From Agarophyton chilense (lineage: Eukaryota > Rhodophyta > Florideophyceae > Gracilariales > Gracilariaceae), in assembly GCA_030374765.1 (NCBI GenBank), contig JARGXX010000105.1, positions 1,488,001 through 1,552,000 of the forward strand: a DNA stretch of 64,000 nucleotides, in the 5' to 3' direction. Below, piece after piece: positions 9,229 to 62,629 of this stretch. The position numbers and the translations under genes are program-made. Below the pieces are notes generated by a model. It made no database searches. It had not been told where the DNA came from and was given only the letters and a program-made list of their open reading frames with translations. Within the stretch, counting starts at the first letter, position 1. Each line of letters opens with the position of its first letter.

Positions 9229-11299
9229 ATGCCGAACTCGCCTTATGAGCCCGTCGCATACGCTATTCTCCCTCCGGAATTTTTCGCTTCGGTCTGTTTT
9301 CCTATCCATTTCCCAGCGTATCAGCCTGTGGGCAGCGGCACCATGGCTTCGAAAAACCAAGCGGGGAGCTTTTCGGGATACCAAGTGGCTTATGAGCGCC
9401 CCGAGGAGCGCTATGACCATACCATCAGACGAAACCCGAGGGCAGTGCGTCATGCCATTATTCCGTCCTTTGTGGAATAATACCAAAGGTTCTGTCATAT
9501 ATATATCTCGACGCCCAGAGGTTCGCTAAGATACCCGATTTCCGGAGGGGCAGTAAGAACGCGCGCAGCGTCTCGTGGTAGAACCGATGTTTGCATTGTC
9601 CTGTGGATCCGCGTTCGGCGACGCGCTGTCGCACCCTCATCCAAGCGGACATGCCGTACGTACGCTGCGAGGAGAAAGCCGAGTACCAGTTCAGGGTGAG
9701 CAAACTCCTTTCAGACCTATACGCGGACTTTATCTCGCCTCATGTGAGATTTCCTCCGGTGGGTCACAATCTCTTGGCGCTCATGTGCTTCCGGTCGCCG
9801 TACGACTGTCTATTTTGGATGCCCAATAGGGTCTCTTGAAACGAGATGCTTGAGCCCGATGGTCGTTTACGTCAATCCAAGGAGTTCTTCTTCTGCTGGC
9901 ATCAGGTGAAGTTTCACGACATGAGCGCAGACAAGCGTCCTCCGTTATATCTCTCGCTGCCCCACGAGGATGAAAACCAATGGGCCATGTACTGGCGTAT
10001 CTCGCCGCTCTTTTTGGTTCCCACGCCGTCCATGGTGGCGTATCATTCGTCCCAAATCATGGGCGACGACAATGACCGAAGGTCTTGGTTGTCCTGGAAA
10101 GTACTTTTCGTTGAGTTCAGCGTGATGTCCCTTATGGTCTTTCTGGATACCGCGAAGTACGGAGTCCGTGGTAATGTGCGTTCGGTTGATTTAAGGGTAT
10201 GGTACGACGAGAACATACTGGTCTAATCCCGCTCCCGGACATCATGATCCACTTCCTAAGCAACCTGGGCATCCAGAATATCGTTCGTGGGACCCAGTTT
10301 GCCGTCGAGGAGGCCGAGGCCGTTTTGGATCATGTCCTACACCTGGAGTGGAGCAAGACTCCCGGGTTCCTTTGGTATGACCACGATACTGACTCATTCA
10401 CGCCAATTCCGCTACATCCACAGGCTCGGCATGACACTCGTGCCTATCCCGCCAAGCCTTTGAGGAATCAACCATCCCACATTCCGAGGCGTCATGTGCC
10501 TGACTGTTACCCAAAGGCCATTGGTTTTGATTCCCTGTGCTTCGAGCATGACTTGGAAGCCACGCCGTTGGTTCCTGCTGGTATGTCCGATGGAGAATCC
10601 TTCGGTGAAGATCCCTTCGTCCTACCCATGGAGGGCGTCAATCCTGCGGTCGAGTCCGCTGTTGTGTTTCCGACCGCTTCCCCTCCTCCAGCTCCTCCGG
10701 GCATCGCTTCTCAGGATGAACTCTAATATGAGCCGCCCGTCGCCCAAGTGTAAATCCCTCCTGGAGAGGTTACTGTCGAAGTCGAAAGTCCTGTAGGTGA
10801 TGCGCTGGCTCAGACGTCCACTGGGGGCGTCTACATCGCTCCATCCTCCCCCTTGCCACATTTTCCCGCTTCGGTCACGGCTGCAGTCGCGGCTCTCCGT
10901 CGTGTCTTCCGTATCGTATGTATTACTGTCTCGATGGACATTGCGACAGTCCTGAGGGAAGCTTGCTCCTGGGCGCATAGCTTGGCGCGCTACGCGGCGG
11001 TTGTCCAACAGAATCAGTATCTAAAGACCGCTATTGTCAATCTCCTGCAGCAGAATGCACAAATGATGTCCCAGAGTGTTACTCCTGACTTGGATGCCCG
11101 ATATAGTATAAATTTGAGCGGCCGGGAGGCTTCCGATGGAGACAATAGTTCCTGAGCTGAATCACCGCCGAAGAAGCGTGCTGGGCTCGCTTGGGCCGGT
11201 CCTATTGGTACAGTAGGCTCCTCGGGTGACCTTAGTCTCGGATTCGCTCCTGCAGATTTCAATGAGGACGACGGAGTTACTCCTGCGCCGCCCCAGTGA
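9229..11299 (+). pseudogene. Antisense gene of family A element A1 (aORF), degenerate
   Basis: The frame runs opposite to gag-pol, between the chromodomain and the 3' LTR. It starts MPNSPYEPVAYA (9229) and passes through three phases: 9229-9480, then about 9500-10226, then 10199-11299. Breaks include TAA 9478-9480, TGA 9837-9839, a frameshift near 10210, TAA 10724-10726 and TGA 11153-11155. Recognisable segments are LDARRFAKIPDF (best seen in the copy at 38.8 kb), SKLLSDLYADFISPHV, LRVWYDEN, EWSKTPGFLWYDHD, MDIATVLREACSW and SPPKKRAG (a basic, nuclear-signal-like patch). The stop TGA at 11297-11299 is conserved in the second A copy. A remote relationship to the B and C antisense proteins is visible at 'LRVWY' and 'F(L/I)WYD'. 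The function is unknown; I recognise no family. The fold is probably mostly helical with a disordered Pro/Ser-rich C-terminal part. Confidence 0.6.
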
Positions 11300-11375
11300 G
11301 TCCTGTTGGTGTTTGGAGCGCTTTAGCCAGCCTTGAGGTCACAACGAGGGCTGTTAGGCCTCTGCTAGTTAGTCA

Positions 11376-11381
11376 AATAAA
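11376..11381 (+). terminator. AATAAA downstream of the A1 antisense frame
   Basis: AATAAA lies 77 bases after the antisense stop, followed by a T-rich stretch. The same arrangement occurs on the minus strand at 36761-36756 in A2, 86 bases after the equivalent stop. It suggests separate 3' ends for antisense transcripts. Confidence 0.5.
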
Positions 11382-11476
11382 GTAATGCTTTTTTTTCCCC
11401 CAAAGTTGCTCCTGTATTCCTCAAACGTGCGTTCCCCGGGACGGTGTCCGAACCTTGAGAGCGTCTCAGGTCTTCC

Positions 11477-13221
11477 TCAGGTCTCGCCTGAGGACTGATT
11501 TCGTTCTCTGATGTGGGGGCTACGGCGAACCGTCGTGTCGAGAGGCGTTTTGGGATGCGTTTTGGTATTATTGGGGCCAAATGTTGCCCTCTCCTGAGGG
11601 CTGCGCTCTGGGTTGCCGATTTTGCGCCAATGGCGGGCGATAGAATTAGCCGGAATGGTTTGAGGCTCTGGCCAAGTTTCTTCCCCAGGGGTGTAGCCAT
11701 CCAACGGACGCGATAGCGCATAGTTCCATCTTCTCCCCGACCGGCCGAGATGATGCGCTCAATCACGTATTCCAGTTGGTGTTCATTCTCCGGAAGGAGA
11801 GTGTGGTCCAGCGTGGCGAATCCATCGCAGTCGGTTAAAAGAGATGGTTCATCGTCATTGGCATGGACCATCAGGTCCATGGGGCTAGTCGGGTCCGTGG
11901 AAACGGCCTTACGGGGTGTGGGGACTTGAGCGTCGACCTGAGGTCGTAGTGATTTCATCGGGCCAGGGGGCATGGACTTTGGTGATTCAGGAGAGCTGGG
12001 GGCTCGTATCAGCCGATCAATAGATACGGTGTCCTGTAGGCCGTCAATTAGAAACTTGATGGTGTGTTCATTGGCCTTAAGGACTTTGTATGGTCCCGTA
12101 CAGCGGGGTAAGAGCTTTTGCGTAGTGTTCTCAAGTTCTTCACTGTCGTTCTGTGGCCGGTCCAGGTAAACCAGGTCTCCTTTCCCAAAGGTCGGTGTGT
12201 TCCAAACGGCTTTGTCGAAATTGAACTTGGAGCGCCGTTGGGCTATGGGTAGTACAGTTCTGGCCGATTGGAGAATGCGGTCAATGCGTCGGCGCGAGTA
12301 ACGCTTCGCCTGAGTAGGAGTCATTCCTTCGGTTATGTCCTGGGGTATAATAGACTCTTGAAGGTCAACAGCTATCGGCGGTGGCGATCTTTTCAGTGTT
12401 AAATGGAAAGGTGTTGTCATCGTGGAAGCGTGCACTTGCGTGTTGTAGGCATAAACCAGTGGCTAAACGTAGTCGTCCCAGTCCAATTGGTGCTGCGACA
12501 TCTGTGGCTATTGGCTTCCCTGGGGGTAGGGCTCGTGTAAGTTTGGTAAACCTATCGGTTATTACCAATACAAACCGTTTCCCATGGGAAGACTTAAGCA
12601 AAGGTCCAAGTATATCCATTGCGACAAATTCCATCGGGCCTGCGGCGGGGAAGAGTTTCAATTTGGCCTGATGGTTGGCGCGAGACCCTCGGGTTTGTGC
12701 GCACGAAGTACAGTTCCGTGCGATGTGCCATAGGTCCTGCGCCATTAGTGGCCAGTAGAAGATCTTCCATAGGGTCTGGTACATTCGTCGGCCTCCAGGG
12801 TGACCAGCCAAGCGAGGGAAATGGGCGAGGTATAGGAATCGGGCCCTTAATGACCTTGGTACTACCCGTTGGAGTGCGCCATCCAGTGGTGAGCGGTAAC
12901 ACAGTAGTCCAAATCGTTCATAGTCGAATAGGCATCCAGAGGTTCCTACCAATTGGGCTGTTTCATTGAAGTACTCGTCTTCAACTTGCGCCTGTAGGAG
13001 TTGCTCAATAGTTAAAGGGAGGAGCTCTTTTTCCTCTGGGGCTATCGCGTTAACCTGAGGTGGTGTCGAATTGGGCGGTACTGTCTCCCAATCCAATAGG
13101 TAGACTTCGTTCTCCTTTACCTCAGGATCATTGATTTTGACCTTATTCATAAGGTAATCCGTTTCCGTATAACCCTGAGGTCCATCATCTGTGAAGGGGG
13201 TAGGGATGAGGTCGTTTAATT
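11477..13221 (-). pseudogene. A1 pol: partial integrase and chromodomain
   Basis: Read on minus from 13221: a linker (DDLIPTPFTDDGPQ), the integrase zinc domain (HFPRLAGHPGGRRMYQ...CTSCAQT), the first catalytic Asp region (VAMDILGPL and ITDRFTKLTRALP), then a jump. The codons between 'ATDVA' and 'LDWD' are missing compared with A2, so the second catalytic Asp and the Glu are lost. The frame then changes near 12400 and continues with QVHAST, the GPYKVLKANEHTIKFLIDGLQD strand and a chromodomain (EYVIERIISAGRGEDG...YRVRW). Another frameshift there leads into the 'EETWPEPQTIPA' end, stop at 11477. The integrase is inactive. The pol end faces the antisense frame end tail to tail, about 180 bases apart. 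Confidence 0.8.
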
Positions 13222-13667
13222 TGTGAAGCAGCGATGACATCGGTTGAGCCTTGTAAGCCGCCGGGCCCTGAGGTATCTTACAGACGCCACGTGGACGGGT
13301 CGACCTCAGGTGGACTCATGTAGATTATTAATTTATTTTAATTAGTGTAATAGATTAACACTACAGTGCCAGGGAGATCTCAGCGCCTCTCCAATATTGT
13401 TTACTTGGCTCGAGTGACGCTCCTCCCTTAGAGTACGGTAGGCACCGTTAGGATACTAAATAACCCCCTTTGGTCTATTAGTTCCACCCATTGGTCTTCA
13501 AGCCATCATTTCCGTGGCTTCGACCTGTAGGACTACGCAGTTCATGCCAGTCCATCGCACCAAGTACTCTGGGAGTGCCGCCGTCAAGTATTCGAACCTT
13601 AGGACCCGCTCTACCACTCTACCACCGGTCGAGACCCGTACGCTGACCCAATCGTCATTTCGTTACA
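13222..13667 (+). repeat. Inverted family A LTR inside A1
   Basis: A complete 446-bp LTR A (TGTGAAGCAGC...GTTACA) in orientation opposite to A1. Its flanks (TAATT and GTTAG) do not match as a TSD. To its left is integrase, to its right gag, so protease, RT and RNase H (about 3.4 kb in A2) are absent. This fits an inserted opposite-orientation element followed by deletion rather than a simple solo LTR. Confidence 0.85.
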
Positions 13668-14856: not shown

Positions 14857-15522
14857 TGTAGTATTCTACTATGTCGGGGAATCCGATGGGTTGGTTTTTC
14901 GCGAAGTCGCGGTTGGAACTCATAAGTGAGTGATATCATCAGCATTGCAATATGAAACGGCACACCGCGTAGGATGCCAGGAGGCAGGGTACATTGTTGG
15001 AACAAGTAGCATCACGAGTGGAGGGGCTTGCAACGGCGCATGTAGTGGCGATCCACGCGGCTGGTTTTACTACCCTTTGTAGCTAGACGTCTATTAGGCA
15101 CCATACCCATTCAGTGGTTTGGCTAAGTGGCTGACCACTGGGTATTATTTATATATTTATTTGGGCACTCACCCTGGCACACAGTATATAGTGTCCAGAG
15201 GTGAGCGCCGACTCTAAGTAAAGGAGACAACATGGGCATCATGACTATTCTGTTCCTCGCTTAGGATTCCTTAACCGGAGATCCGGACGAGCTATAATAG
15301 ATAGTCAGCTCCCAACCACTTCATGAGCCGTCTCGTACCTACGTCCCATCAACGTTTTACAGTTGCACTGTCCACCCTCGCTGGCGAGTAGTGGCCTTAC
15401 ACCCCAATTCCAGCTCGCTGGTGTTGTAGCTCTACCACCCCTTTTCCTTCGCCGCAAGCGACCCATCGGCAGTCCGAACGCTGTCGCAGGTGTCTGCTCT
15501 TTCCGATAGAGCTGATACTACA
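14857..15522 (+). repeat. B1 5' LTR
   Basis: TGTAGTATTC...GATACTACA. It contains an AT-rich TATATATTTATTT at about 15149-15161, a candidate promoter element, followed by a strong inverted repeat at 15163-15209 (arms around CTCACCCTGG and AGAGGTGAG). Confidence 0.9.
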
Positions 15523-20900: not shown

Positions 20901-22724
20901 CGGAAACTGATGACGCTATTCCAGGCGAAAGCGCATTTACAATACGTCAGTATCGACATCCTAGGGGAATTGATTCGCTCAAGGCGAGGTTATCGCTACC
21001 TATTGGTAATCACCGACCGTTTCTCGAAGCTAGTGCGGACTGTGCCGCTGAAGCGGAAAACCGCAACCGTAATCGCACGGGCGTTTATCAAACACTCGGT
21101 ATTTATATACGGACCACCAGAAGTTCTGTTATCAGATAATGGGAAGCAATTCGTTGCGAAGTTCTTTCAGAATGTGTGCCGCATTATGGGCATTCGAAAC
21201 GTGTTTACCGCGACCTATCATCCGCAATGCAACGGTCAGGTGGAGCGTTTCAACCGCACGCTGATAGCAGCATTACGAAACTACATCGCGGACCACCCGA
21301 AAGAATGGGACATGTTTACAGATACTCTGTGCTACGGGTACAATACGCAAGTGCATACCTCTACAAAGACGGCATCGTTCGACCTCGTGCTCTCACGTAA
21401 CCCTCCGGCTTTACCGGTTGCGCTCGACGACGAGACCGAATTGGACGCGCGGACCCCGGCTAAGTACCATCTGAAATGAAGGAATGACCTGAAGGCCAGA
21501 GCGGAAGAAGCCGCTAAAGAGTTATCGAAGACGCAAGCTCGCTATAAGAGAAACTATGACGCCAGAAGGCGAAGAGGAAATCCGGCAATCCGAGTAGGAG
21601 GTCACGTCTTCGTACGAGTTGAAAGACCAGGCAAACAGGAAGAATCTCGTCATAGGTTGTTGCCGATAGCGGCTGGACCCTTCAAAGTGGTGGACCTTAA
21701 TGAAGACACAGTGGTCATCAAGACAGGTGAGGACATTAAACGTGTATCGCGCGATCGTGTTGAAGTCGCGCCTGACCCGCAAGTGGAAGTCCCGGTATCT
21801 GGTATAACTAAGGAGGCAAGTGCGACGGAACGTCAAGGAAAAAGCCCAAGAGACTCTGGGGAGAGTGAACCGCCACCAATGGCTCGAGCGGAGGAAAAAG
21901 CTCCTGATCTCCCACCGCCGGCCGTTGCGTACGCCAATCACGGACAGCTTCCGAAGTATCGGGATATTCCCCGTGGCACGCGCACACCCGTAATTACAGA
22001 AATGGAACCTGAAAGCATGAAAGATGTTTTGGAATTTGGCCCCAAAAACTTGGAAACGAATGCACGCGAAAACGCGCCGTTGCCGCTTCAGGCTGAGCCG
22101 TCAGGTGAAGCGCCACTCGCTGTTCCGCCGATATCGGCCCCCATCCTTCGTGGGCAGTAAGAAGAAGAGGTATCGCCTCCTGTCGTGGTGCAAGCTTCAT
22201 CGTCCACCGAGCAGCGGTCAGAATCAGATAAACCGAAGGAAGTTCATCCACGAATGGAATTGAAAAGTAGCAAGAAGTACGCTTCTATGGAACCTGGAAA
22301 ACAGGATATCTCTTCATCTGAGAAAGGTTCTCAAGGAATGAGTACACTGCCCCTTCGGGCAGAACGACAGATAGTCGACGAGCGAACGCTTAGCGACGCT
22401 GAGACTGCTAACACAGAGACGCTTGGGTCAGCCCTAAGGCATTTCAAACCTGTTAACAGGAGTCTCGCGCCAACAGCAAAAGCATTGGGAAACGCCCAGG
22501 AATATGTTATGGATCGCACATGTGAACATGGCCACCATGAAGATACTATAGAATTACTGTATCGAGTCGGTTGGTACGGTTTTCCTCCGGGAGCGGATAC
22601 GTGGGAACCTATAGCTCATATCCCCCGTTCGCAACTCGTGCGATATCATCGACGCATGCGATTACCACTCCCCAGGGAGATCGACTCCTCGATAGTCGGG
22701 CTCATGGGCACATCCCATTTCTAA
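17946..22724 (+). pseudogene. B1 pol polyprotein with five nonsense codons and altered RT active site
   Basis: One phase from 17946 to 22724 with no frameshift but five stops: 18771 (TGA; B2 has TGG), 19449 (TAA; also in B2), 20640 (TAG; B2 GAG), 21477 (TGA) and 22158 (TAA; B2 GAA). Domains in order: aspartic protease (ILDTGAGSNF, about 18207), RT (VLVPKPDGSLRFCIDYQKLN; FTTLDANSGYW; CLVYLGDVIIFS), RNase H (SVDTDSSEYQVG; NTDHSSLRWLL; ADALSRL), integrase with HHCC finger (HYSRLSGHPGG...CTTCAKN) and DDE residues (SIDILG; LLSDNGKQF; QVERFNRTL), a GPFKVVDL strand, and a chromodomain (YRVGWYGFPPGADTWEPI). The RT motif reads Y-L-G-D: the first catalytic Asp codon is GGC at 19590-19592, which should abolish polymerisation. 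Confidence 0.9.
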
Positions 22725-22816
22725 GTATGGGCTACAAAGGTAGTAAAAACTCGAAAGGCGAGAAGAAAACAAGAAATCATGAAGAGGAAACGTGAAGACA
22801 CGCAAGCACAGGACAT

Positions 22817-24890
22817 TTACTGATTATCTAGGACAAACTCGAGAAGCGAGAAGAAGGATTGAAGAACTCGAGAAGCGAGAAGAGATGATTGAAGAACTCG
22901 TGAAGCGAGAAGAAGAAGTATGAAACTCGAGAAGCAAGAAGAAGAAGCTAAGAACTCCGGAAGCGAGAAGAGATGAAGACTAGAAGATGAGAAGGGAACG
23001 TGAAGACACGAAGTCACCGGAGTTTTATTGGTATCAAGATACCACCGCAAGGGTGTTGACCAGGAGTCTTTTCTAGTATCATCAAAGAGACGTGCGAGCA
23101 CGCATGTTCGCAAGAAGCTGTGCGCGATCACCCTCAACTTGGTCCACGGGAAAGCCCGCAGCGGATCCAAGCCTGGATCTTCGACCGGCACAGCACTCGG
23201 TTGTTGGGTAAACCCATGACAGTACTCTTGAGCAACTCCCACCGCTGCGGACTGATCGACGGAAGTCGCTACGCCTGCCAGCTCTGGCTCGTCCTCGTAA
23301 CCGAGTTCAGCCTCAGCTCCCGGCGCTTCTTCATACGGTTCCTCTCCGTTCTGGGATGGAGTAGCATCGTACACGTATCCAGTAAGCTGGTTCGGTGGCA
23401 TGTCACGCGGGTTCTCCCGAAGAAAGCGAGCCTGCTCGGAGGTGATCAACTGGCGCGTCCAGGGGTCGTACCAAATGAAATCTCCAGCACTTGCTGTTCG
23501 TCCAGGAGAATGGTCGTAGTGTCTTGCACGAGTTCCGCGGGCGGATTGATCAGCTGGCACTCCAGACCAATCGACACTGTCGATCAAATCCACAAGATGG
23601 AGGAAGTCGGCATGGTTCGCACGGGATCCCAGGACAAGGGAAAGATCGAGTTCTCTCGCATACTTTCGTGCTGTGGGCGACGTGTACCAAACTCTAAAGG
23701 TATCATAAGCATCCCACAGGAGAAAGACGGCCACCTTGGCGATACACTCGGTATAAACCACCGTCCAATATCCCGAGAACGGGTCGTTAACCAACGCGGA
23801 CCCGATGTAGGAGATCGCCGGTGGAAGCTCCACAGGGCAACCAAGAGGACTCTCGATCGCCGCCCAATGCTCTGGAATACCGATGTAGCGCCCGAAGCGC
23901 GCGTTCCGCCGGATGCGTTCAATTTCGATCATTTGATACTGCACCAAATAGCCCAAACGTGATCGAGTACGGCGTTCCCAACGGGGATAATCCCAATAGG
24001 GAATGTCACGATTTCGAAGGAAGCGGAACTCCGCATGGAGAAGAGGTTGCTGAAAGCAGAGGGCTGCATCACGCACACCGCGCACACCGCGCCAACCGCT
24101 AACATCGACTTCAACGAGTGTCTCGATATACGACTAACCTTCACCGTCGGTACGGGCTTTCCAGGTATCTAGTTCCCAGTCCTGCGGGAGGAGAACCATA
24201 CTGATGAAACGGTGAAGACGCTGGTAAATCAGCTTGGTGAACAGCGTACGGGCTTCGGACAAGGTTTCCCTTGAATATCGCGCAATCGCGTTGTCTGGCA
24301 AAGCAATATGGCTTGCCCAGTTGTCGCTATAAATCGCGTGTTCCGGAATACCGTCGGGGAAGTAACCACCGTGTACATACTGTTGTGTCAACGCGTCATC
24401 GCGGATAGCAACTGGATCAAACTAGGGCGCTTGCGCGGAAATTTCGACGTTGTCGAGAGGATCTCGTCCATAGAAATCCGCAGGGTGCGGGTAGCTCCGC
24501 TGAGCACGACGAGAAGGAGCTCGACATCACACCCGCAGCGGCGAAATAAGCTGCGTTCGGCATCGGAGCCACGGTTGGCTGAGGTAACGGTACCGACCGG
24601 AATCCGGTTTGCGGTGTTGGTAACGAACGGTGTGGACCGAGCTGAGCAGTAGGCTGCGACGCATAACCAGCAGTGTTGGACGGAGCCCCAGAAGGCACAT
24701 ACTCAGAGGAGGGCTGAAACGGGTTGGACCCGGCGTTTGGATCCATCGCGAGAGATCGAGCTGAAAAGCGATGAGGAACAGAATGCTGTTGAGAACTGTA
24801 AGTGTTGGTCGGGCGGCGAGGATATCGTGATGACGATGAGTACCTGTAACACCGGTCCGACTGCGTATAAACGCTTCTTGCCTCCCCCAT
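22817..24890 (-). pseudogene. Antisense gene of B1 (aORF), nearly continuous
   Basis: Convergent to pol, 92 bases beyond its stop. The N-terminal module (24890-24417, MGEARSVY...) is Ser/Pro/Gln-rich and probably disordered. The body lies in another phase: segments HPADFYGRDPLDNVE then QAP-FDP (W changed to stop TAG), QQYVHGGYFPDGIPEH, TLFTKLIYQRLHRFI, stop TAG after 'DGEG', then 422 uninterrupted codons 24085-22817 with HAEFRFLRNRDIPYW, RYIGIPEHWAAIE, PFSGYWTVVY, DTFRVWY, GDFIWYDPWTRQ, PRDMPPNQLTGYVYD and an acidic EEPYEEAPGAE patch. Most nonsense codons differ from those in B2, so a full-length frame existed recently. Homology with the C antisense protein is clear at APWF-P and HAEFR-L. No signal peptide and no known domain. 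It is not an envelope gene in the usual sense because it is antisense. The role is unknown. Confidence 0.7.
22835..22990 (+). repeat. Short tandem repeat, GAACTCGAGAAGCGAGAAGA units
   Basis: About five degenerate units of 25-35 bases built on CTCGAGAAGCGAGAAGA, purine-rich on plus. It overlaps the 3' end of the B1 antisense frame, giving Leu/Ser-rich repeats there. The matching array in B2 is at 46235-46375 (reverse complement). Confidence 0.75.
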
Positions 24891-24914
24891 GGTTTGCGCT
24901 TAACGAGGGGGGTA

Positions 24915-25581
24915 TGTAGTATTCTACTATGTCAGGGAATCCGATAGGATGATTTTTCGCGAAGTCGCGGTTGGAACTCATAAGTGAGTGATGTCATCAA
25001 CATTGTGATATGAAACGGCATCCCGCAAAGGATGCCTAGAGGCAGATTACATTGTTAGAACACGTGGTATCACGAGTGGACTGGCTTGCAACGGTGCATG
25101 TAGTGACGATCCATGTGGCTTGTTTTACTACCCTTTGTAGCTAGACGTTCATTAGAGACCGTACCCATATAGTGGTTTGGCTAAGTGGCTGACCACTGGG
25201 AATTATCTATATATTTATTTGGGCACTCACCCTGGCACACAGTATATAGTGTACCAGAGGTGAGCGCCGACTCCAAGTAAAGGAGACAACATGGGCATCA
25301 TGACTATTCTGTTCCTCTCTTAGGATTCCTTAACCGGAGATCCGGACGAGCTTTAATAGATAGTCAGCACCCAACCACTTCACGAGCCGTCTCGTACCTA
25401 CGTCCCATCAACGTTTTACAGTTGCACTGTTCACCCTCGCTGGCGAGTAGTGGCCTTACACCCCACTTCCAGCTCGCTGGTGTTGTAGCTCTACCACCCC
25501 TTTTCCTTCGCTGCAAGCGACCCATCGGCAGTCCGAACTCTGTCGCAGGTGTTTGCTCTCTCCGTTAGAGCGGGTACTACA
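24915..25581 (+). repeat. B1 3' LTR
   Basis: TGTAGTATTC...GGTACTACA, preceded directly by the polypurine tract CGAGGGGGGTA. It pairs with 14857-15522 with scattered substitutions, so the insertion is not very recent. Confidence 0.9.
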
Positions 25582-40010: not shown

Positions 40011-40897
40011 GTGCATTCACTCGATCGTTTCTGGATTGTAAGCCTAGAAGTATGTAGACCAAATAGCTCGAGACTCTTATCGAAAGTGCCGTTCCATTTC
40101 GTCAATTATTCCTTTGTCTCGTTCAAAATTCCTGAAGAACACTTTCTATCTTCACAGAAAACGAAAAAAGCCCTTGAACTTCTAACCGAAGCCCAGTTAA
40201 ATCACGTTCAGGAGATGGAAAAATACAACACAACCCTCGACGTTTCCGACAGCAATGAAGAGTGTGACTCCAAGTGTCCTATATTCGATTCATTGTTCAG
40301 AAACGATGGATCTTATACAGTTTATCGCATGACCAATTTCAATGCAAGAGAATTTCAAGCAGTATGAAATGGAGTGGAGAAAGCAGTGCTACATTTTTGG
40401 AACACTGGTCGTAGTCGTCCCTATAAGACGAGTGCAACGGATATATTGTGCATGAACTTAACTGTTCTCAAACACGGTGGACAGTGGGGTTTTCTCTGCA
40501 GAATGTTTACCATGAATCGGCCAACGTTCGAGCATATGGTCACGAAGTTTGTATTCATGCTATCTGATGGTCTTGTGCAGTCTTTTATGCTCGACTTGGA
40601 TGGCAAATGTTGTTTTGGTAAGATGGTTAAGCATGGAAAAACTTTCCTGGACTATAAGTACTCTAGGTATGCCAATGGTGTTTTCTTCCATCAAAGTAAT
40701 CGACCGAGTGGGCCCATGGAAGAGAGTAGGATGTACTACAGTGGTAAACATAAACTGTATGGATACCAAAGCGAAGTCTCAGTGTTGCCGAACGGTATGG
40801 CTATTGGGACATCCAATCGTTTTCCTGGATCTAAGGCAGATGTAGATGTATTCTATGACAATATAGAGTTTCATAACGAGGCACTGCAGAAAATAGA
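40011..40897 (+). pseudogene. DDE-transposase-like gene, 5' part (split by C1)
   Basis: Frames 40011-40367 and 40374-40897 share one phase, separated by a TGA at 40365. The product has a predicted helical N-terminus, then VYRMTNFNAREFQAV, YKTSATDILCMNLTVLKHGG, FEHMVTKF, and SGKHKLYGYQSEVSVLPNG-AIGTSNRFPGSKADVDVF. This fits the catalytic domain of Harbinger/PIF-like DDE superfamily endonucleases ('YSGKHK--G-K-----P-G', 'PGS--D---F'). It could be a transposon-encoded or a captured host copy. No terminal inverted repeats were found. The reading frame continues at 62153 after removal of C1. The TGA plus later stops show it was decaying independently of C1. Confidence 0.65.
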
Positions 40898-41785
40898 TGA
40901 AGGACAATGACCTTCAAGGGGGTTTCTTCGCAGGACTTAGAGAGTTTGCTCGCTTGAGGACTAGCTTGGTCTATGACAAGCTATACCGCTATTGCGTGCC
41001 GACGGCTGGTTAGGACCGGAATTTCACACTGGTGAAACACGTGGACTGCACGGATGCTGACGCTCGAGTGCGAGGCGTGCCACACGTGGCCCGGATTCTA
41101 CCTAATGGTTAGTATTATTTAGTATTTTTTAGTGTTTATTTAGCTACGCTATCGCTATGTAGTGTCTATTTTTTGCGCGCGCGCCCACTGTCAGGGGCCG
41201 CGCGCCACGCTACTTCGGAGGTTGAGCACTGCTCCCCAGTAAACGCCATCTTGGGAGATACCAAGGAGGGAGTCTTGGCTCTGAACTCTTCGCCTTCGGC
41301 GCGTCTTCACCACATACTGCGTGAGCGCCGGTCGCACGTTCTTTCATCCACCCCTCTGTCGACCACAGTGCTACCACCACCGTGGGTTCATATTTAATCG
41401 CCGACACTTGTCGTAGTCTCGCCCCTGTATAGGGTTTCGCCCCCGTTTTCCTCTTGTTCTCCTTTTTGGCTCTCGTGAGTGGCCGCCTCACTCACCTCGC
41501 TCGTCCACCTCATACGAGTGTTTCCTCGCTTTTTTTCCGACAAACGCCGTGATACCGCTCCGCCTAGGATTGGTCACACCCCGGACTGTGCCGTGCTCAC
41601 CTAAACACTCTAGGTATATCCCGCCGGATTGGCCTCAGTCTTACACCCGACTCCGTCGTGCCTTTCCAGAGTGGCTCTGTTTCTGTGCTCCGCTGGGACG
41701 CGTCTCCTCCGCCTGAGGCAGGTCTCTCAAGAGAGGAAGATCCCGAACATCTTCGTGGTGTCTCTGCTCCAAGCGTTGTCCTACA
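40898..41785 (+). repeat. C1 5' LTR
   Basis: 888 bp. An AT-rich stretch with repeated TTAGTATT/TTTAGT units at about 41108-41145 and a GCGCGCGC tract follow. It ends GTTGTCCTACA. Confidence 0.9.
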
Positions 41786-41788
41786 AAC

Positions 41789-42001: not shown

Positions 42002-43622
42002 CCATCGCAACCATCCTGTATCCCGGTCCGTTCACGATCTCATACCGGTGGATCGACTGGATTGCAAGGTGGAAGGACCTCGAGACCTTCTGTCTCTGAT
42101 TTGACACCCCCAGCAAGTGGAGCAGGACCGGCGTCTGTCGCTTCCCAGATGCGCTCCCCTGCTAGGGACGTCACTCTCCATCCCAGATTTGCAGCTGTGG
42201 AAGAGCAACTCCGCTCTTTGCGGGAAGCTCAAGTCATCCATGCAGAGGAGTTTGATTCCCTTCGCAAGAAGGTGGATGGCACTGCTACGCAGGATTTTTC
42301 TGAGGACCTCCGTGTCCTCCGTGCGGATGTGAACTCGATTCTAGGGTCCCTTGGTGGAGCCTCGGTCTTTGTCAAGGACGTCGCGGACAAGTCCTCGCGC
42401 GTCCGAAGCCGTCTCGAGACGTTAGAATAAACCCTAGTGTCGGGGAATGATCCGGCCGAGCCGGTTGCAGTATCCCATAATGGAAATTAGGAAGAGAACC
42501 GCCAGGCTTGAAAGAAGCGAAGGAACACGAATCCCGAACCGTCGGATTCCTCATCCTCGGAGTCCGACTCTCCCGATTCATCGATGGAAGTAGCTCGCCC
42601 TGAGCGTTCCTCACGCTCTAAGCGGTCAACAGCCACCCATGGTGTGATCCGCGCCCGCACGAAGGGAAGGAAGCACACAGGTTTAAAGGAGCTGAAACCG
42701 ACCAATTCGCTCTTTATGAAGCTCTTATCATACCGGTACTACCGTTTGGAGGACTCTTCTTTGGAACGTACAACCCGTGGTACTAGAAGAGTGAAGGACT
42801 GCATTAAGCGAATGCAGCTCTCACTACGAAACCAGTTGTTTTCTGGAGAAAACCCAATATTGGTGTTGGATTTCATGGTATGCTTTGTCGCGGAAGCTGA
42901 CATCCTTGGAATGAAGGAGGGACAGGCCAACATTGCCTTACCGTACTTCTTACGTGGGCTTGCAGATGACCAGTATCACTCTGTCAGAGGTTCATCAAGC
43001 GCCTCCGAAGGAGGGGTCACATGCTGGCCTGAAGCAGTTCAATACCTCGTGAGGTCGTATGCTACTAATTCCGCCATTCAGCAGGCTATACTAGCCCTGC
43101 GGGACACTTGCCAACGTCCAGGCGATTCGGAAACCGATTGTTCGTCGCGCCTTAACAAGGCCTTCCACCGCTGTGGCAATGTTTACCCCGCTGAAGAGCG
43201 TTGCACCATGTTTGTCGATGGTTTGGACCCGGAGATCCGGACTCTTGCTGCTCGACGTCGAGAAGATAGACTTAAAGCCACGTATTTGGAACTAGTGCAG
43301 TTCGCTCGTGCAGAAGGAGAAGCCCTGCGCACACGAACTCCTGGCTCCAGGGGTAGGTCCGCAAAAGCGTTGATGTTACAACCGGGTACCCCGTCAGCAT
43401 CGATGATCGACGAACAAGCCTTTCGAAGGGATTATGATAACTTGCAGCTAGCCCATAGCGACGTTCATTCCATCCAGACAACGGAGTTACCCTCAACCTT
43501 GGACGAGTCACAATACGTGATTGGGGATGACACGCTACTCTATGCGGATAATGGTCGCGTCCGTGCGCCACGCGTCCCACACGAGGGTGGTATTGTCAGT
43601 TTTTCGCGTCCTGGTTGGAGAG
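42002..43622 (+). pseudogene. C1 gag, 5' part (split by B2)
   Basis: One phase from about 42002 to 43622, with stops at 42428 (TAA), about 42488 (TAG) and about 42509 (TGA). No ATG begins it, so the start is lost or unusual. A coiled-coil-like helix (FAAVEEQLRSLREAQVIHAEEFDSL) is followed by an acidic Ser run and then the capsid-like domain: LLSYRYYRLEDSS, CIKRMQLSLRNQLFSGENPILVLDF, VAEADILGMKEGQ, ALPYFLRGLADDQYHSV, GGVTCWPEAVQYLVRSYATNSAIQQAILALRD. It is homologous to the B gag throughout. The frame runs into B2 at 43622 (after RPGWR) and resumes at 54319. Confidence 0.8.
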
Positions 43623-44289
43623 TGTAGTATCCGCTCTAACGGAGAGAGCAGACATCTGCGACAGCGTTCGGACTGCCGATTGGTCGCTTGCGGCGAAGGA
43701 AACCGGGTGGTAGAGCTACAACACCAGCGAGCTGGAAGTGGGGTGTAAGGCCACTACTCGCCAGCGAGGGTGAACAGTGCAACTGTAAAACGTTGATGGG
43801 ACGTAGGTACGAGACGGCTCGTGAAGTCATTGGGGGCTGATTATCTTTTATAGCTCGTCCGGATCTCCGGTTAAGGAATCCTAAGCGAGGAACAGAATAG
43901 TCATGATGCCCATGTTGTCTCCTTTACTTGGAGTCGGCGCTCACCCCTGGTACAGTATATACTGTGTGCCAGGGTGAGTGCCCAAATAAATATATGAATA
44001 ATACCCAGTGGTCAGCCACTTAGCCAAACCACTGTATGGGTACGGTCTCTAATGGACGTCTAGCTACAAAGGGTAGTAAAACCAGCCACATGGATCGTCA
44101 CTACATGCACCGTTGCAAGCCAGTCCACTCGTGATACCACGTGTTCTAACAATGTAATCTGCCTCCTGGCATCCTACGCGGTGTGCCGTTTCATATCACA
44201 AGTTTGATGACATCACTCACTTATGAGTTCCAACCGCGACTTCGCGAAAAATCATCCTATCGGATTCCCCGACATAGTAGAATACTACA
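43623..44289 (-). repeat. B2 3' LTR
   Basis: 667 bp. The adjacent polypurine tract is at 44290-44300 (TACCCCCCTCG on plus). Confidence 0.92.
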
Positions 44290-44313: not shown

Positions 44314-46390
44314 ATGGGGGACGCAAGAAGCGTTTATATGCAGTCGGACCGGTGTTCCGGGTACTCATCGTCATCACGAAATCCTCGCCGCCCGACCAAC
44401 TCTTACAGTTCTCAACAGCATTCTGTTCCTCATCGCTCTTCAGCTCGATCTCTCGCGATGGACCCGAACGCCGGGTCCAACCCGTTTCAGCCCTCCTCTG
44501 ACGATGTGCCTTCTGGGACTCCGTCCAACGCTGCTGGTTATGCGTCGCAGCCTACTGCTCAACTCGGTCCATACCGTTCGTTCCCAACACCGTACACCGG
44601 ATTCCGGTCGGTACCGTTACCTCAGCCAACCGTGGCTCCGATGCCGATCGCGGCCTACGTCGCCTCTGCGGGTGTGATTTCGAGCTCCTTCTCGTCGTGC
44701 TCAGCGGAGCTACCCGCACCCTGCGGATTTCTATGGACGAGATCCTCTAGACAACGTTGAACTTTTCGCGCAAGCGCCCTGGTTTGATCCAGTTGCTATC
44801 CGCGATGACGCGTTGATACAACAGTATGTACACGGTGGGTACTTCCCCGACGGTATTCCGGAACACGCGATTTATAGCGACGACTGGGCGAGCCATATTG
44901 CTTTGCCAGACAACGCGATTGCGCGATATTCAACGGAAACCTTGTCCGAAGCCCGCACGCTGTTCACCAAGCTGATTTACCAGCGTCTTCACCGATTCAT
45001 CAGTACGGTTCTCCTCCCGCAGGACTGGGAACTAGATACCTGGAAAGCCCGTACCGACGGTTAAGGTTACTCGTATATCATGACACTCGTTGAAGTCGAT
45101 GTTAGCGGTTGGCGCGGTGTGCGCGGTGTGCGTGATGCAGCTCTCTGCTTTCAGCAACCTCTTCTACATGCGGAGTTCCGCTTCCTTCGAAAGCGTGACA
45201 TTCCCTATTGGGAATATCCCCGTTGGGAACGTCGTACTCGATCACGTTTGGGCTATTTGGTGCCGTATCAAATGATCGAGATTGACCGCACCTGGCGGAA
45301 CGCGCGCTTCGGGCGCTACATCGGTATTCCGGAGCATTGGGCGGCGATCGAGAGTCCTTGTGGTTGCCCTGTGGAGCTCCCACCGGCGATCTCCTACATT
45401 GGGTCCGCGTTGGTTAACAACCCGTTCTCGGGATATTAGACGGTAGTTTATACCGAGTTTATCGCCAAGATGGCCGTCTTCCTCCTGTGGGATGCTTATG
45501 ATACCTTTAGAGTTTGGTACATGTCGCCCACAGCGCGAAAGTATGCGAGAGAACTCGATCTTTCCCTTGTCCTGGGATCCCGTGCGAACCATGCCGACTT
45601 TCTCCATCTTGTGGATTTGATCGACAGTGTCGATTGGTCTGGAGTGCCAGCTGATCAATCCGCTCGCGGAACTCGTGCAAGACACTAAGACCATTCTCCT
45701 GGACGAACAGCAATTGCTGGAGATTTCGTTTGGTACGACCCCTGGACGCGCCAGTTGATCACCTCCGAGCAGGCTCGCTTTCTTCGGGAGAACCCGCGTG
45801 ACATGCCACCGAACCAGCTTACTGGATACGTGTACGATGCTACTCCATACGAGAACGGAGAGGAACCGTATGAAGAAGCGCCGGGAGCTGAGACTGAACT
45901 CGGTTACGAGGACGAGCCAGAGCTGGCAGACGTAGCGACTTCCGTCGATCAATCCGCAGCGGTGGGAGTTGCTCAAGAGTACTGTCATGGGTTTACCCAA
46001 CAACCGAGTGCAGTGCCGGTCGAAGATCCAGGCTTGGATCCGCTGCGGGCTTTCCCGTGGATCAAGTTGAGGGTGATCGCGCACAGCTTCTTGCGAACAT
46101 GCGTGCTCGCACGTCTCTTATATGATCCTAGAAAAGACTCCTGGTCAACACCCTTGCGGTGGTATCTTGATACCAATAAAACTCCGGTGACTTCGTGTCT
46201 TCGCGTTCCCTTCTCATCTTCTAGTCTTCATCTCTTCTCACTTCCGGAGTTCTTAGCTTCTTCTTCTCGCTCCTCGAGTTTCATACTTCTTCTTCTCGCT
46301 TCACGAGTTCTTCAATCATCTCTTCTCGCTTCTCGAGTTCTTCAATCCTTCTTCTCGCTTCTCGAGTTTGTCTTAGGTGATAATCAGTAA
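44314..46390 (+). pseudogene. Antisense gene of B2 (aORF)
   Basis: The first ATG (44314, MGDARSVYMQSDRC) lies only 25 bases inside the 3' LTR, so a transcript would have to start in the LTR or very close. The Ser/Pro/Gln-rich N-terminal module ends at 44760. The body is in another phase from about 44678: SYPHPADFYGRDPLDNVELFAQ, APWFDPVAIRDDAL, GGYFPDGIPEHAIYSDDW, LFTKLIYQRLHRF, LLPQDWELDTW, HAEFRFLRKRDIPYWEYP, RYIGIPEHWAAIE, LWDAYDTFRVWY, GDFVWYDPWTRQLI, MPPNQLTGYVYD, an acidic stretch and a Leu/Ser-rich repeat tail. Stops TAA 45062, TAG 45437 and TAA 45686 are private to this copy (B1 codes GAA, TGG and TAC there). The body phase is otherwise kept for about 1.7 kb. The function is unknown. 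Confidence 0.7.
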
Positions 46391-53669: not shown

Positions 53670-54313
53670 TGTAGTATCCGCTCTAACGGAGAGAGCAGAC
53701 ATCTGCGACAGCGTTCGGCGAAGGAAACCGGGTGGTAGAGCTACAACACCAGCGAGCTGGAAGTGGAGTGTAAGGCCACTACTCGCCAGCGAGGGTGAAC
53801 AGTGCAACTGTAAAACGTTGATGGGACGTAGGTACGAGACGGCTCGTGAAGTGGTTGGGGGCTGACTATCTATTATAGCTCGTCCGGATCTCCGGTTAAG
53901 GAATCCTAAGCGAGGAACAGAATAGTCATGATGCCCATGTTGTCTCCTTTACTGGGAGTCGGCGCTCACCCCTGGTACAATATATACTGTGTACCTGGGT
54001 GAGTGCCCGAATAAATATATAAATAATACCCAGTGGTCAGCCACTTAGCCAAACCACTGTATGGGTATGGTCCCTAATGGACATCTAGCTACAAAGATAG
54101 TAAAACCAGCCACGTGGATCGCCACTACATGCGCCGTTGCAAGCCAGACCACTCGTGATACCACGTGTTTCAACAATTTACTCTGCTTCCTGGCATCCTA
54201 CGCGGTGTGTCGTTTCATATCACAAGCTTGATGACATCACTCACTTATGAGTTCCAACCGCGACTTCGCGAAAAACCAACATATCGGATTCCCCGGCTTA
54301 GTAGAATACTACA
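53670..54313 (-). repeat. B2 5' LTR
   Basis: 644 bp. It lacks about 22 bases (after CAGCGTTCGG at about 53718) found in the other three LTR B copies. Confidence 0.9.
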
Positions 54314-57700: not shown

Positions 57701-59686
57701 AAGTTGAAGCTGTTTCCAGCTCGCACTCCATTGGAGTTTGTTGCCATCGATATAATCGGTCCCTTCCTTACCACTAAGCGTAATTACAAGTTCTTACTCG
57801 TAATTATGGATCGCTTCTCAAAGCTGGTCCGGACCGTACCGTTACGGAAGATCTCCGCTATGAGCGTGGCTCAAGCCTTCGTCCTACACTGGGTCTTCGT
57901 CTACGGCCCACCGGTCAACCTTCTCTCCGATAACGAGAGACAGTTCGCCTCTCGTTTCTTCGAGGATGTATGTCGCATCTTGGACATTAAGAACCTGTTC
58001 ACGACCACTTACCACCCCCAAACTAATGGGCAAGCCGAACGGTTCAACCGGACATTACTTGCGACACTCCGTTCACACGTTGCAGACCACCCCAAAGATT
58101 GGGACTTGTTCACTGATGCGCTCACCTTTGCGTACAATACGCAGGTGCACAGGACAACTGGATTAACGCCCTTAGAGCTGGTACTGTCCCGTACCCCACC
58201 GCCCGTGGTGCTGGAACCACAGCCCACGCTGGATACCTTTCCGTCACCGACTGCTTACCGCGAAGCGTTGAAAACTTGGCTCACGAAGCTCGTTCCCGCC
58301 GCACGGCGTTCAATGGGCCGAGCCCAGGCCGCTTACAAGCGTGACTTTGATACCGAAGCCCCTCGCTCGCCGCCACGTCTCGCCCCCGACGGTTATGTAT
58401 TCATCCGCAAGGAGTATTGGAACCCAGAGAAGGAGAAACGCCACAAGCTGTCACCCGTTGGCGACGGCCCCTTTCGGGTTATTTCGGTGGCTCCCGACAC
58501 TGTCGTTGTTTACCTCGCTGGTAATCACGAACGCATCTCCCGCGATCGCGTGGTATCGGCTCCTCCGCCGTTAACATCCCAACCTACTGGTGTGACTGCT
58601 CCCGTTGAATCGGATTCATCGACCCCCTTACCCCAGGTCCACCCGCGTCCCTACACGTTACCACACCCATCTCGGGGTTTGTCTGACCTTCCGCTACCCG
58701 CGGCGCCCAACCCGCAAGGAATCCTGTCCCGCATTCGTCGCTCCTCCCCAGTCTACCCGACGGACACCAACCCCGGTGCATCGTCTAAGGAGGGGGAGGC
58801 GCCCGACAGCCGTCGTAATCCGGTCGATGCCGTCGCTGGAAACGCCGCACCGTCACGTGTCATTCTTCGCCCATCAGGGGTGCCTGATACCGACGTCCTG
58901 CACGACTAGACGCAGTCGCTATCCAAGCCTCAGACCGCAGCTGCGGATAACGCCACCAACACTCGCCGAGGTGTTACCACACGTGAAACACGGAATGCAA
59001 ATGCGCTCGACGCTACACAGCCTGATACAGTACGAGTGGACGACGCACCGCCAAGTACCCCGCACAGGGAGGCGGATACATCCACGGCGCCGACGCCGGA
59101 CAGCCAGCCATTGGAACGCTCACGTGACTACACGGAACCTCGCCGTGGGACAGAGATGTGCGACAATGCGCCACCGCCCCAGCGAATCTCACCGCCGAAG
59201 CGAGCTTCACCACGCCGACTAGCGGAACGACCACCCGGGTTACCCGCTGGTGTGGGCCCTCCAACCTGAGTGGGAAGCGCCGAAACAAGCCCGGCACTTG
59301 GGGAAAATGAACCGCCGAACTCGGGTTGACATTCTACTCAGCTGAGGACTGCCTTGGGCGCTACACGGTCCGACCGGAGCGAAGCCGCCCAACGCGTGAT
59401 CACTTCGGTACCCCCTGGCTCAGGACAGGTACCACCCGTAAATAGCGACACCGTCATACGGGATGGCCGGGAAGTGTACCGACAAGAGTTCGTGGTCGGA
59501 CGCATTTTGGAGCACTCCTACCACCCAGAGGGGTATATACAATACTTGGTCCGTTGGTACGGGTACGGCCCCGAATGGGATTCAGACGAACCGATAGAGC
59601 ACCAACCTCGGTCAAAGGTGGTACAGTATCATCGTCGTACTATCACGGCTTTGCCGGCTACCATAGACCGAGCCGAAGTGGGATAA
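54710..59686 (+). pseudogene. C1 pol polyprotein, near-intact (protease, RT, RNase H, integrase, chromodomain)
   Basis: From ATG 54710 the frame is uninterrupted for 1399 codons. Protease LTVLDTGAGPNF (about residue 92). RT with FTTLEANWGYW (Asp of motif A reads Glu; Ser/Gly reads Trp), LPFDFTNAPATF (usual G is D) and intact YLDDTIVFS (residues about 563-571). RNase H TVDTDASDYQVG, FTDHASLRWLLS, ADALSRL. Integrase HYSKLSGHVGG...CTDCAGN, VAIDIIGPF, LLSDNERQF, QAERFNRTL. Then GPFRVISVAPDTVVVYLAG. TAG 58907, TGA 59267 and TGA 59327 interrupt the same phase before the chromodomain (GRILEHSYHPEGYIQYLVRWYGYGPEWDSDEP, 59490-59590) ends at 59686. The motif A change may also impair RT. Confidence 0.9.
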
Positions 59687-59898: not shown

Positions 59899-61225
59899 TT
59901 AGTTGGAAGAACCCGGATTGCCGTGCACGCCAACCGAATCGCTAGCGGAGTTACTCCCGCCGGTCAGGCGTGCCACGAGGGCGTCTCTCATCGCACCGAT
60001 GTCGCCGCTCGCCACTTGCGCGTTCAGTCCAACACCCCGAAGGAACTGGGAGATCACGACCGCCTCTGGGCGTATCGGAACCTCGATAACTTCCGGTTCG
60101 TGTGGCAACGCCGCCGCCACTGGATCGACCACCGCACCTGCGTGAGTCGCTCCCTGCGCCGGCCGCGCCGTAGTATCGGCACCATCGGGGTCTCCCACGT
60201 CTTCCATGACCTCGTCGCCACGGTATTCGCCCTCCTCCTCCGGGAGATCATCACAGCCATAGGCGTAGTAGAAGTCATCCGAGTTGACATACCCCACGGG
60301 GTGCCCGTATGGTATGCCTCGCGGAGCCATCGCTGGATCTGCCCCGACGCTCCTCGCGGATGAAGTTCTGTAACCACCGATGTCGGGACTCACGATGAAG
60401 GTGACGGAACTCGGCACGAATGATCTGACGGACCCAGCAGATCGCTTCTTGACGCGCTCGCGGTTGGCCGCGCCATGCCTAAGTTTCCAACGCCGCAAGG
60501 CGGTCACAATAGCCGATCTCCCCCTGAGTCCGGTACATCCGTAGGTCGAAGCCGAATTCGTCGGGGATGGGCTATTGGAAGTTCGCCCGGCTGATCCGTG
60601 AGTAACCGATGCGGACGAATATACAATGCGCCTCTTCCGCCGACTCGCTCCTTTGCCACAGAATCGCGTGAATGGGAACCGCCATACGGCGTCGCCAGTC
60701 CCACGAAGTGGTGATCAAAGCCGGCAGCTCGCCTGGGAGACGCGCATTGCAATCAGCATACGCGGCCACGAGTTCTTCGTCGAAGACCTCTGTCGGATGG
60801 AACCACGGAGCTCTCCGGAGAATCGCCGCATGTTGACGCGGGTTTAACCCGACGAGTTCGTCGTAACTGGGCCAGGTGTCCCCCGCAGGAGTGATGTGGC
60901 TTGAAGCTTCAACGGGACCCCGGGATCGGCTCGGCGCGGTTGACGAAACACTCCCCCGCGGAAGGGGAGCCGAATGGAAACCGGAGAAGTAACCTCGGCG
61001 GGGATTGTTACCACCGGTCATCGGGAGTACTGGTCGCCGAGGTATCAGGATGTGGTCGTGGGAAGTGGGCGTACGATGCGGAAGAGCGCTCGAAGTTCGA
61101 GGAGTGGTTACCGCGTTGGTGCGTTTGTCGTTCGGTTGTGCAGCTCTGCCTTCGACAGTCGAGTGGTCGCTGGACGCGTTACGCGGCTCGCTCTTATGCC
61201 GGTTGGACCGTTGCCTCCCCGCCAT
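59899..61225 (-). pseudogene. Antisense gene of C1 (aORF), with internal deletion
   Basis: On minus from ATG 61225 (MAGRQRSNRHKSEP): Ser/Pro/Arg-rich N-terminal module, then PSYDELVGLNPRQHAAILRR and APWFHPTEVFDEEL, LPGELPALITTSWDW, VRIGYSRISRANF, a TGA, DEFGFDLRMYRTQGEIG, a TAG, and AICWVRQIIRAEFRHLHRE. After a phase change near 60360 comes AMAPRGIPYGHPVGYVNSDD and an acidic DDLPEEEGEYRGDE stretch, ending NPGSSN at 59899. Compared with B the middle segment (RYIGIPEHW to GDFIWYD) is missing. Pairing of APWF-P, RAEFR-L and MAP...GYV with the B protein is convincing despite low identity. It converges on pol with 212 bases between. The function is unknown. Confidence 0.65.
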
Positions 61226-61260
61226 GTCGACGGCGTGTTCGTCACCTAAGGAGGGGGATA

Positions 61261-62152
61261 TGAAGTACAATGCCCTTCAAGGGGGTTTCTTCACAGGGCT
61301 TAGAGGTTTCGCTCGCTTGAGGACTAGCTTGGTCTATGGCAAGCTATACCGCTATTGTGTGCCGACGGCCGGTTAGGACCGGAAGTGCACACTGGTGGAA
61401 GACGTGGACTGCACGGATGCCGACGCTCCAGTGCGAAGCGTGCCACACGTGGCCCAGATTCTACCTAATGGTTAGTATTATTTAGTATTATTTAGTATTT
61501 ATTTAGCTACACTATCGCTATGTAGTGTCTATTTTCGGGCGCGCGCCCACTGTCAGGGGCCGCGCGCCACGCTACTTAGGAGGTTGAACACTGCTCCCCA
61601 GTAAACGCCCTCTTGGGAGATACCAAGGAAGGAGTCTTGGCTCTGAACTCTTCATCTTCGGCGCGTCTTCACCGCATACTGCGTGAGCGCCCGTCGCACG
61701 TTAGTTCATCCACCCCTCTGTCGACCAGAGTGCTACCACCACCGTGGGTTCATATTTAATCGCCGACACTTGTCGTAGTCTCGCCCCTGTATAGGGTTTC
61801 GCCCCCGTTTTCATCTTGTTCTCCTTTTTGGCTCTCGTGAGTGGCCGCCTCACTCACCTCGCTCCTCCACCTCATACGAGTGGAGTGTTTCCTTGCTTTT
61901 TTTCTGACAATCGCCGGGATATCGCTCCGCCTAGGACTGTTTACACCACGGACTGGGCCGTGCTCACCTAAATGCTCTAGGTATATCCCGCCGGATTGGC
62001 CTCGCTCTTATACCCGACTCCGTTGTGCCTTTCCAGAGTGGCTCTGTTTCTGTTCTCCGCTGGGAAGCGTCTTTTCCGCCTGAGGCGTCTCTCTCAAGAG
62101 AGGGAGATCTCGAACATATTCGTGGTGTCTGCGCTCCAAGCGTTGTCCTACA
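61261..62152 (+). repeat. C1 3' LTR
   Basis: 892 bp, partner of 40898-41785 with scattered substitutions and small indels. Polypurine tract just upstream (61247-61260). Confidence 0.9.
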
Positions 62153-62629
62153 ATAGAAGATGAAAAGAAAATCGCAGATGTTGGTGAACTCAGTGATGCG
62201 TATGAAAACTTGTGGGCTGTGTTGAATGATAACTTATATAAAGGAAGTGAACAATATTTTCGGCTTCTACCTCCTACTTGTAATCCAAAAAATGGATTCC
62301 TGTCCAGCGAACAGGTTAGTCGAAATAAGAAAGAGTCATCAGATGATATCATTGTGAAAAATTATTTCGGGCGTGTTACGTCTTTGTGCAGTTTGTTTTC
62401 TGTAATAAGCCGATAGAGTGATAAGTTGTACGACAACTTTTTTCATTTCGCTTGTGCCATAACGAATCTACACATTCGTTGGCAACCACTACCTGCAGTT
62501 GACGGTGAACGTTATGCATGAGTAAAAAATAGACTGCGCACGATTTGTGAATCAATCTGTGCCAAACGTAAGGAAACTTCAAAGCGCTACCGCATAAAGA
62601 GAAGGATGCGTTTGGACACGCGTTTTGGA
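62153..62629 (+). pseudogene. DDE-transposase-like gene, 3' part
   Basis: Joined to 40897 (one TSD copy removed) it continues EDEKKIADVGELSDAYEN, YFRLLPPTCNPKNGFLSS, KKESSDDIIVKNYFGRVTSL, then beyond stops (TAG at about 62413 and another at about 62519) SDKLYDNFFHFACAITNLHI, then RWQPL and ICESICAKRKETSKRYRIKRRMR. The 'DIIVENYFGR' and C-terminal basic segment are typical of a transposase family whose catalytic core lies in the 5' part. Dead. Confidence 0.65.

Follow-up and report, generated by a model that had tools for sequence, protein, structure and literature searches.

The window, by which we mean the whole 64,000-nucleotide stretch of DNA analysed here, contains Ty3/Gypsy elements that carry, between pol and the 3' LTR, a long antisense reading frame of about 560-620 codons, tail to tail with pol. 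Elements of three families (A, B and C) are considered here, and their features are collected in Table 1. In families B and C the converging genes are about 210-360 bp apart. The first ATG of the antisense gene lies 25 bp from the 3' LTR in family B and 36 bp from it in family C. An AATAAA was found near the antisense stop in all 35 B copies and after the antisense stop in none of the 27 C copies tested. Both the second B copy (B2) and the C element carry reverse transcriptase, RNase H and integrase in Gypsy order, as judged by Pfam matches, and B2 scores 21.4 bits against the Pfam Chromo cut-off of 25.1. The C element (40897-62153) holds the whole of B2, nested between the C 5' part and C pol.

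Table 1. Features of the antisense genes and of the elements that carry them, in positions of the window.
Feature	Position	Strand	Remarks
A antisense frame pieces	9229..11299	+	Best pieces 9840-10223 and 10190-10723
A pol end	11365-13240	-	Tail to tail with the A antisense pieces
B1 5' LTR	14857..15522	+	
B1 pol end with chromodomain-like stretch	22161..22721	+	Pfam Chromo 23.8 bits, cut-off 25.1; gag-pol on the plus strand ends at 22721
B1 spacer between converging genes	22722..23081		About 360 bp
B1 spacer 29-bp tandem repeat	22836-22971		4.7 copies
B1 spacer AATAAA	starts 23029	antisense strand	
B1 antisense gene	23082..24890	-	First ATG 24890; alternative ATG 24746; stop 23082-23084
B1 polypurine tract GAGGGGGG	24905..24912	+	Adjoins the 3' LTR; between LTR and antisense ATG
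B1 3' LTR	24915..25581	+	92.4% like the 5' LTR
C 5' part, ORF	42584-43627		No Pfam match
B2 3' LTR	43623..44289	-	Matches the 5' LTR (53670-54313) in two pieces, 43623-43671 and 43691-44289
B2 antisense gene (second window copy)	44314..46125	+	Several stops
C pol	54710-58909		
C pol end with chromodomain-like stretch	59330..59683	+	Pfam Chromo 25.0 bits, cut-off 25.1; pol ends near 59683
C antisense gene	59899..61225	-	ATG 61225; stop at 59899; middle part missing in the window copy
C polypurine tract AAGGAGGGGG	61248-61257		Just before the 3' LTR, between antisense ATG and LTR
C 3' LTR	61261..62153	+	92.3% like the other C LTR, 40897-41786

The B and C copies in the window are damaged. The B1 antisense gene contains a frameshift and an internal stop, and the parts that encode its N-terminus and its core are not in the same frame. 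Because other B copies have a single 611-amino-acid frame, we regard this frame change as damage and not as an intron. An earlier sequence-only reading of the window had placed the B1 gene at 22817-24890; the gene does extend to 24890, but its true end is at 23082, and 22817-23081 is reached only via a frameshift near the end. The same reading had placed the C gene at 59899-61225, where a gene is indeed present, but profile positions 198-375, the central part of the protein, are absent from the window copy.

The arrangement is not peculiar to the window. When the 80 Mb genome (135 contigs) was searched, the B protein gave at least 105 matches (99 of 1893 candidates scored; some are second pieces of one place), the C protein at least 151 (150 of 1234 candidates scored) and an A piece at least 150 (150 of 583 candidates scored). 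One red algal genome holds several hundred matches to this antisense protein family, all counts being lower bounds. The gene, the LTR and the pol end occurred in the expected order and orientation at 34 of 35 B loci and 26 of 30 C loci, window copies included, which bears out the proposal that the B and C frames lie opposite gag-pol, between a chromodomain-like pol end and the 3' LTR. An intact frame of 611 amino acids was present at 6 of 30 B loci (L001-L030), although four of these six resemble one repeated sequence with the same scores and frame coordinates. An uninterrupted stretch of at least 639 amino acids was present at 3 of 30 C loci, and 17 of 79 genome-search rows, the four repeated-looking B copies among them, were free of stops over about 500 residues or more. 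Stops in the gene frame averaged 1.6 per copy in 32 B sequences and 1.5 in 27 C sequences, compared with 9.8-30.5 in the other five frames. These results fit the earlier claims that the stops are private to single copies and that full-length frames existed in the source elements.

The searches also brought up two further families. Family D, of which two copies were read in sequence, reached up to 62% identity to the query. Family E accounted for 68 of the 79 rows of a further protein search, at 39-44% identity compared with 34-36% for B, C and D; 44 of these 68 rows had no stop in the matched part, and the remaining 11 of the 79 rows appeared C-like, at 35-36% identity. Family E occurs on contigs C13, C7, C22 and others, many with an open frame of 652 amino acids. 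Relatives of the protein were found in Gracilariopsis chorda, at up to 90% identity in Agarophyton chilense, and on further contigs; on the basis of the matches to these two species we take the host to be a red alga of the Gracilariales.

Are these proteins related to each other? A profile built from six B-type rows matched the full C protein with 306.9 bits, whereas the best of 200 shuffles scored -0.5. Judged by this comparison, homology between the B and C proteins is beyond doubt, as the sequence-only reading had supposed from shared motifs. The proteins of families B, C and D are homologous, and that of E, known from protein-search rows, probably belongs with them. The link to family A is weak. 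Plain hmmsearch found the A piece at 9840-10223 only with an E value of 3.3 and did not list the piece at 10190-10723. With hhalign, two adjacent A pieces gave probabilities of 2.9% (E 0.016) and 9.8% (E 0.0033) and a three-row A profile gave 6.5%, while an unrelated integrase piece gave 1.6% (E 0.032). Each A score exceeded all 60 column shuffles, and the pieces aligned in order, to profile positions 198-268 and then 275-329 or 289-389. The motif F(L/I)WYD, on which the earlier A-B link had partly been built, falls within the alignment, but the second motif, (L/F)RVWY, lies outside the aligned part. These alignments suggest that A is probably a distant homologue of the B/C antisense protein.

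Comparisons between families argue that the antisense frame has been under selection. Over 534 codons, B and D are identical at 57% of bases, and their 684 differences are distributed 193/156/335 over the codon positions, with a dN of 0.457 and a dS of 1.652. For B and C, dN was 0.86 and dS 1.90, and for D and C 0.88 and 1.98; dS between families is near saturation, and the exact dN/dS ratio is unsure. As the compared B, C and D copies were picked for an intact antisense frame, the absence of stops in that frame is no independent evidence, and we count only the stops in other frames and the codon-position bias. This bias persisted when the DNA was aligned on either strand without frame information: third-position excess had p values of 4e-15 and 1e-14 for B-D, 2e-6 and 5e-6 for B-C, and 2e-4 and 3e-4 for D-C, counted over in-phase columns (1608 of 1608 for B-D, 1470 of 1776 for B-C and 1501-1503 of 1661 for D-C). 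Similarity also peaked in the antisense frame, with 489 bits compared with at most 310 elsewhere for B-D, and 278 compared with 124 for B-C. Because differences are concentrated in the third position of codons and dN/dS is low, we conclude from these alignments that the antisense frame is under purifying selection between families.

Within one family, the frame decays nearly neutrally and selection is hardly visible. Dead transposon copies are expected to decay in this near-neutral way. From the 35 B and 30 C loci given, short and duplicate ones were dropped, and the pooled dN/dS was 0.84 for the remaining 32 B and 0.77 for the remaining 27 C sequences. The other frames ranged from 0.84 to 1.26, the best of them being 0.855 (B) and 0.839 (C). 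Singleton variants gave 1.02 (B) and 0.88 (C). Shared variants gave an omega of 0.92 (B, 57 sites) and 0.62 (C, 44 sites), too few sites to show selection, and for the B shared variants four of the five other frames were below the gene frame, down to 0.67. Thus, the comparison of synonymous with nonsynonymous change that the sequence-only reading had proposed gives purifying selection between families, but near-neutral change among copies.

Could the frame be open by chance, opposite a sense gene or in structured DNA? The near-neutral ratios within families would agree with this, and so would open frames of 271 amino acids in B and 283 in C on the sense strand of many of the copies retrieved. 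In the two B copies of the window, sense-strand open frames lie opposite the antisense gene at 23120-23962 and 45242-46084. However, in the B, C and D sequences that were compared the pol-strand frames contained 6-28 stops and gave far poorer matches, long homologous proteins exist in other genera, and the B-C profile match is high. We therefore consider chance refuted by the sense-frame stops, the codon-position bias, the frame similarity and the B-C profile match, and we leave it almost no probability. The frame is not simply what happens to lie opposite a sense gene, and the sense-strand open frames seem to be a by-product of the antisense codons, with no conserved protein of their own. Taken with the intact frames, the homologues in B, C, D, probably E and other genera, and the codon-position bias, these data make it almost certain that the element carries an accessory gene in this antisense frame, as had been suggested, and that this gene has been under selection.

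What kind of protein does this gene encode? All eight antisense proteins analysed have a net acidic composition and carry an acidic stretch in the direction of the C-terminus, and in seven of the eight the most basic stretch lies within the core. The predicted layout consists of a low-confidence N-terminus, which is probably disordered, a helical core of about 370 residues, an acidic low-confidence linker and a C-terminal helical pair. An alignment of 25 sequences showed near-invariant E, Y, W, L, W and Y in the core, whose structure model is fair and mostly helical (pLDDT 72.0, pTM 0.70). No fold match to the core model was found. The earlier statement that no known domain is recognizable agrees with our searches; no relative passed the cut-off in Pfam, NCBIfam, PHROG or PDB sequences. 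HBZ, the antisense protein of HTLV-1, has a bZIP domain, and the red algal protein is about three times longer than HBZ. The antisense proteins differ from the HBZ type in that neither a Pfam match to bZIP nor any other domain was found in them. The antisense gene of the plant element Grande encodes a nuclear protein and has its own promoter. We found no obvious nuclear signal in the red algal proteins, since none of the eight contains a seven-residue stretch with five basic residues.

These properties bear on three other readings of the gene. The first holds that the product is structural or a part of the particle, either envelope-like or associated with the capsid, with its gene on the opposite strand. 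Its position is that of env in retroviruses, but the antisense orientation is at odds with an envelope-like gene, which would be in sense orientation and encode a transmembrane segment. Hydropathy maxima over 19 residues were 1.0-1.9 in the eight proteins, two of them borderline (1.63 and 1.86), with no clear membrane span; by eye, none of the N-termini contains a hydrophobic stretch, and the first model searched against viral structure models had no match at E<=0.001. We consider a structural role very unlikely. The second reading is that the protein counters silencing: the converging transcripts would form double-stranded RNA, and the protein would block RNA interference or chromatin silencing. 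The close spacing of the convergent genes, the many copies (as lower bounds) and the lack of an enzyme or DNA-binding domain over cut-off are all compatible with such a role, but no likeness to any known suppressor was found, and we regard it as possible, though on balance unlikely. The third concerns origin and is compatible with our preferred view of the gene as an accessory regulator: a host gene may have moved into one ancestral element and then been inherited. Such capture is known in LTR elements, according to PMC7264820 and PMC11963269. However, no cellular homologue appeared in two protein searches (12 and 21 matches, none with a Pfam domain or functional name), each of which scored about 8000 candidates and reached only relatives sharing short words, and capture seems to us rather unlikely.

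Gag-pol has been considered enough for an LTR retrotransposon, and antisense extras have been described in flowering plants and one fungal element, with function unknown, according to PMC7264820. We found no earlier report of such a gene in red algae in searches of an open-licence library. The nearest known kind is the antisense gene of the plant Retand lineage, aORF-3R (Retand, Grande gene23 and RIRE2), an ORF placed between pol and the 3' LTR that encodes the TRP28 domain (PF04195); according to PMC11963269 and PMC7264820 most copies have it, it is conserved across families, and tandem repeats often occur in the same region. The red algal gene resembles aORF-3R in its persistence and in its placement, which was seen at 34 of 35 B loci and at 26 of 30 C loci, and the 29-bp tandem repeat of the B spacer lies in the region where Retand repeats are frequent. 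The two differ in host, in the chromodomain-like pol end of the red algal elements (Chromo 21.4-25.0 bits, cut-off 25.1; Retand is a non-chromovirus lineage) and in the start of the gene, as the red algal first ATG abuts the LTR whereas PMC7264820 places the promoter of Grande gene23 in its upstream region. In addition, TRP28 was absent from the Pfam matches of seven antisense proteins or pieces at E<=10, and in the whole genome no TRP28 match exceeded the cut-off of 26.2, with one below it (20.2 bits, contig C115). Because TRP28 was not found, we do not file the red algal gene as a member of aORF-3R.

Other systems share only some of these features. Boty of Botrytis and PvRetro13 of Phaseolus also carry an ORF on the antisense strand in the interval from pol to the 3' LTR (PMC7264820), which is the position of the red algal gene. 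The PvRetro13 protein has an SMC domain, according to PMC7264820, and Pfam found no such domain in the red algal antisense proteins. Like HBZ of HTLV-1 and APH-2 of HTLV-2, the red algal gene is antisense and close to the 3' end of the element. In HTLV the promoter for antisense transcription sits in the 3' LTR (PMC7264820), and retroviral antisense genes offer the nearest model for a putative 3' LTR promoter in the red algal elements.

These results show a protein-coding accessory gene of the element that purifying selection maintained while several Gracilariales Ty3/Gypsy families diverged. We propose that it is transcribed antisense from a promoter located in the 3' LTR and that it probably encodes a soluble protein that regulates the element itself. 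We put the probability of this reading as a whole at roughly 60%. We place the promoter in the 3' LTR, directing antisense transcription into the element, because only 25-36 bp, which include the polypurine tract, separate the LTR from the first ATG. Against this, the C LTR showed no TATA-like motif on its antisense strand. That the gene is read from the 3' LTR seems likely to us. In family B, the antisense transcript would probably end at the spacer AATAAA, before meeting pol. The protein is most likely a soluble regulator of the element's cycle, as has been proposed for plant Grande/Retand and is known for retroviral antisense genes, and it might act on transcription, chromatin or silencing. 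Regulation of the element is the likeliest among several candidate roles, and we give it about an even chance.

More tentatively, this red algal Ty3/Gypsy lineage may possess, as an enduring trait of the lineage as a whole, a two-way LTR, one copy driving gag-pol and the other an antisense regulator of an undescribed fold. If this is true, the two-way LTR would be a further case of antisense control besides HTLV-type retroviruses and plant and fungal elements, and a protein unrelated to those of these systems was perhaps acquired independently. A selected antisense gene encoding an unrelated protein family means that such an arrangement originated or survived far outside plants, and the role of antisense genes becomes open to comparison and test.

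At one end of the window, a long ORF (23-3484) contains an exportin-1-like domain (Xpo1, E 1.9e-11) and is apparently a host gene.
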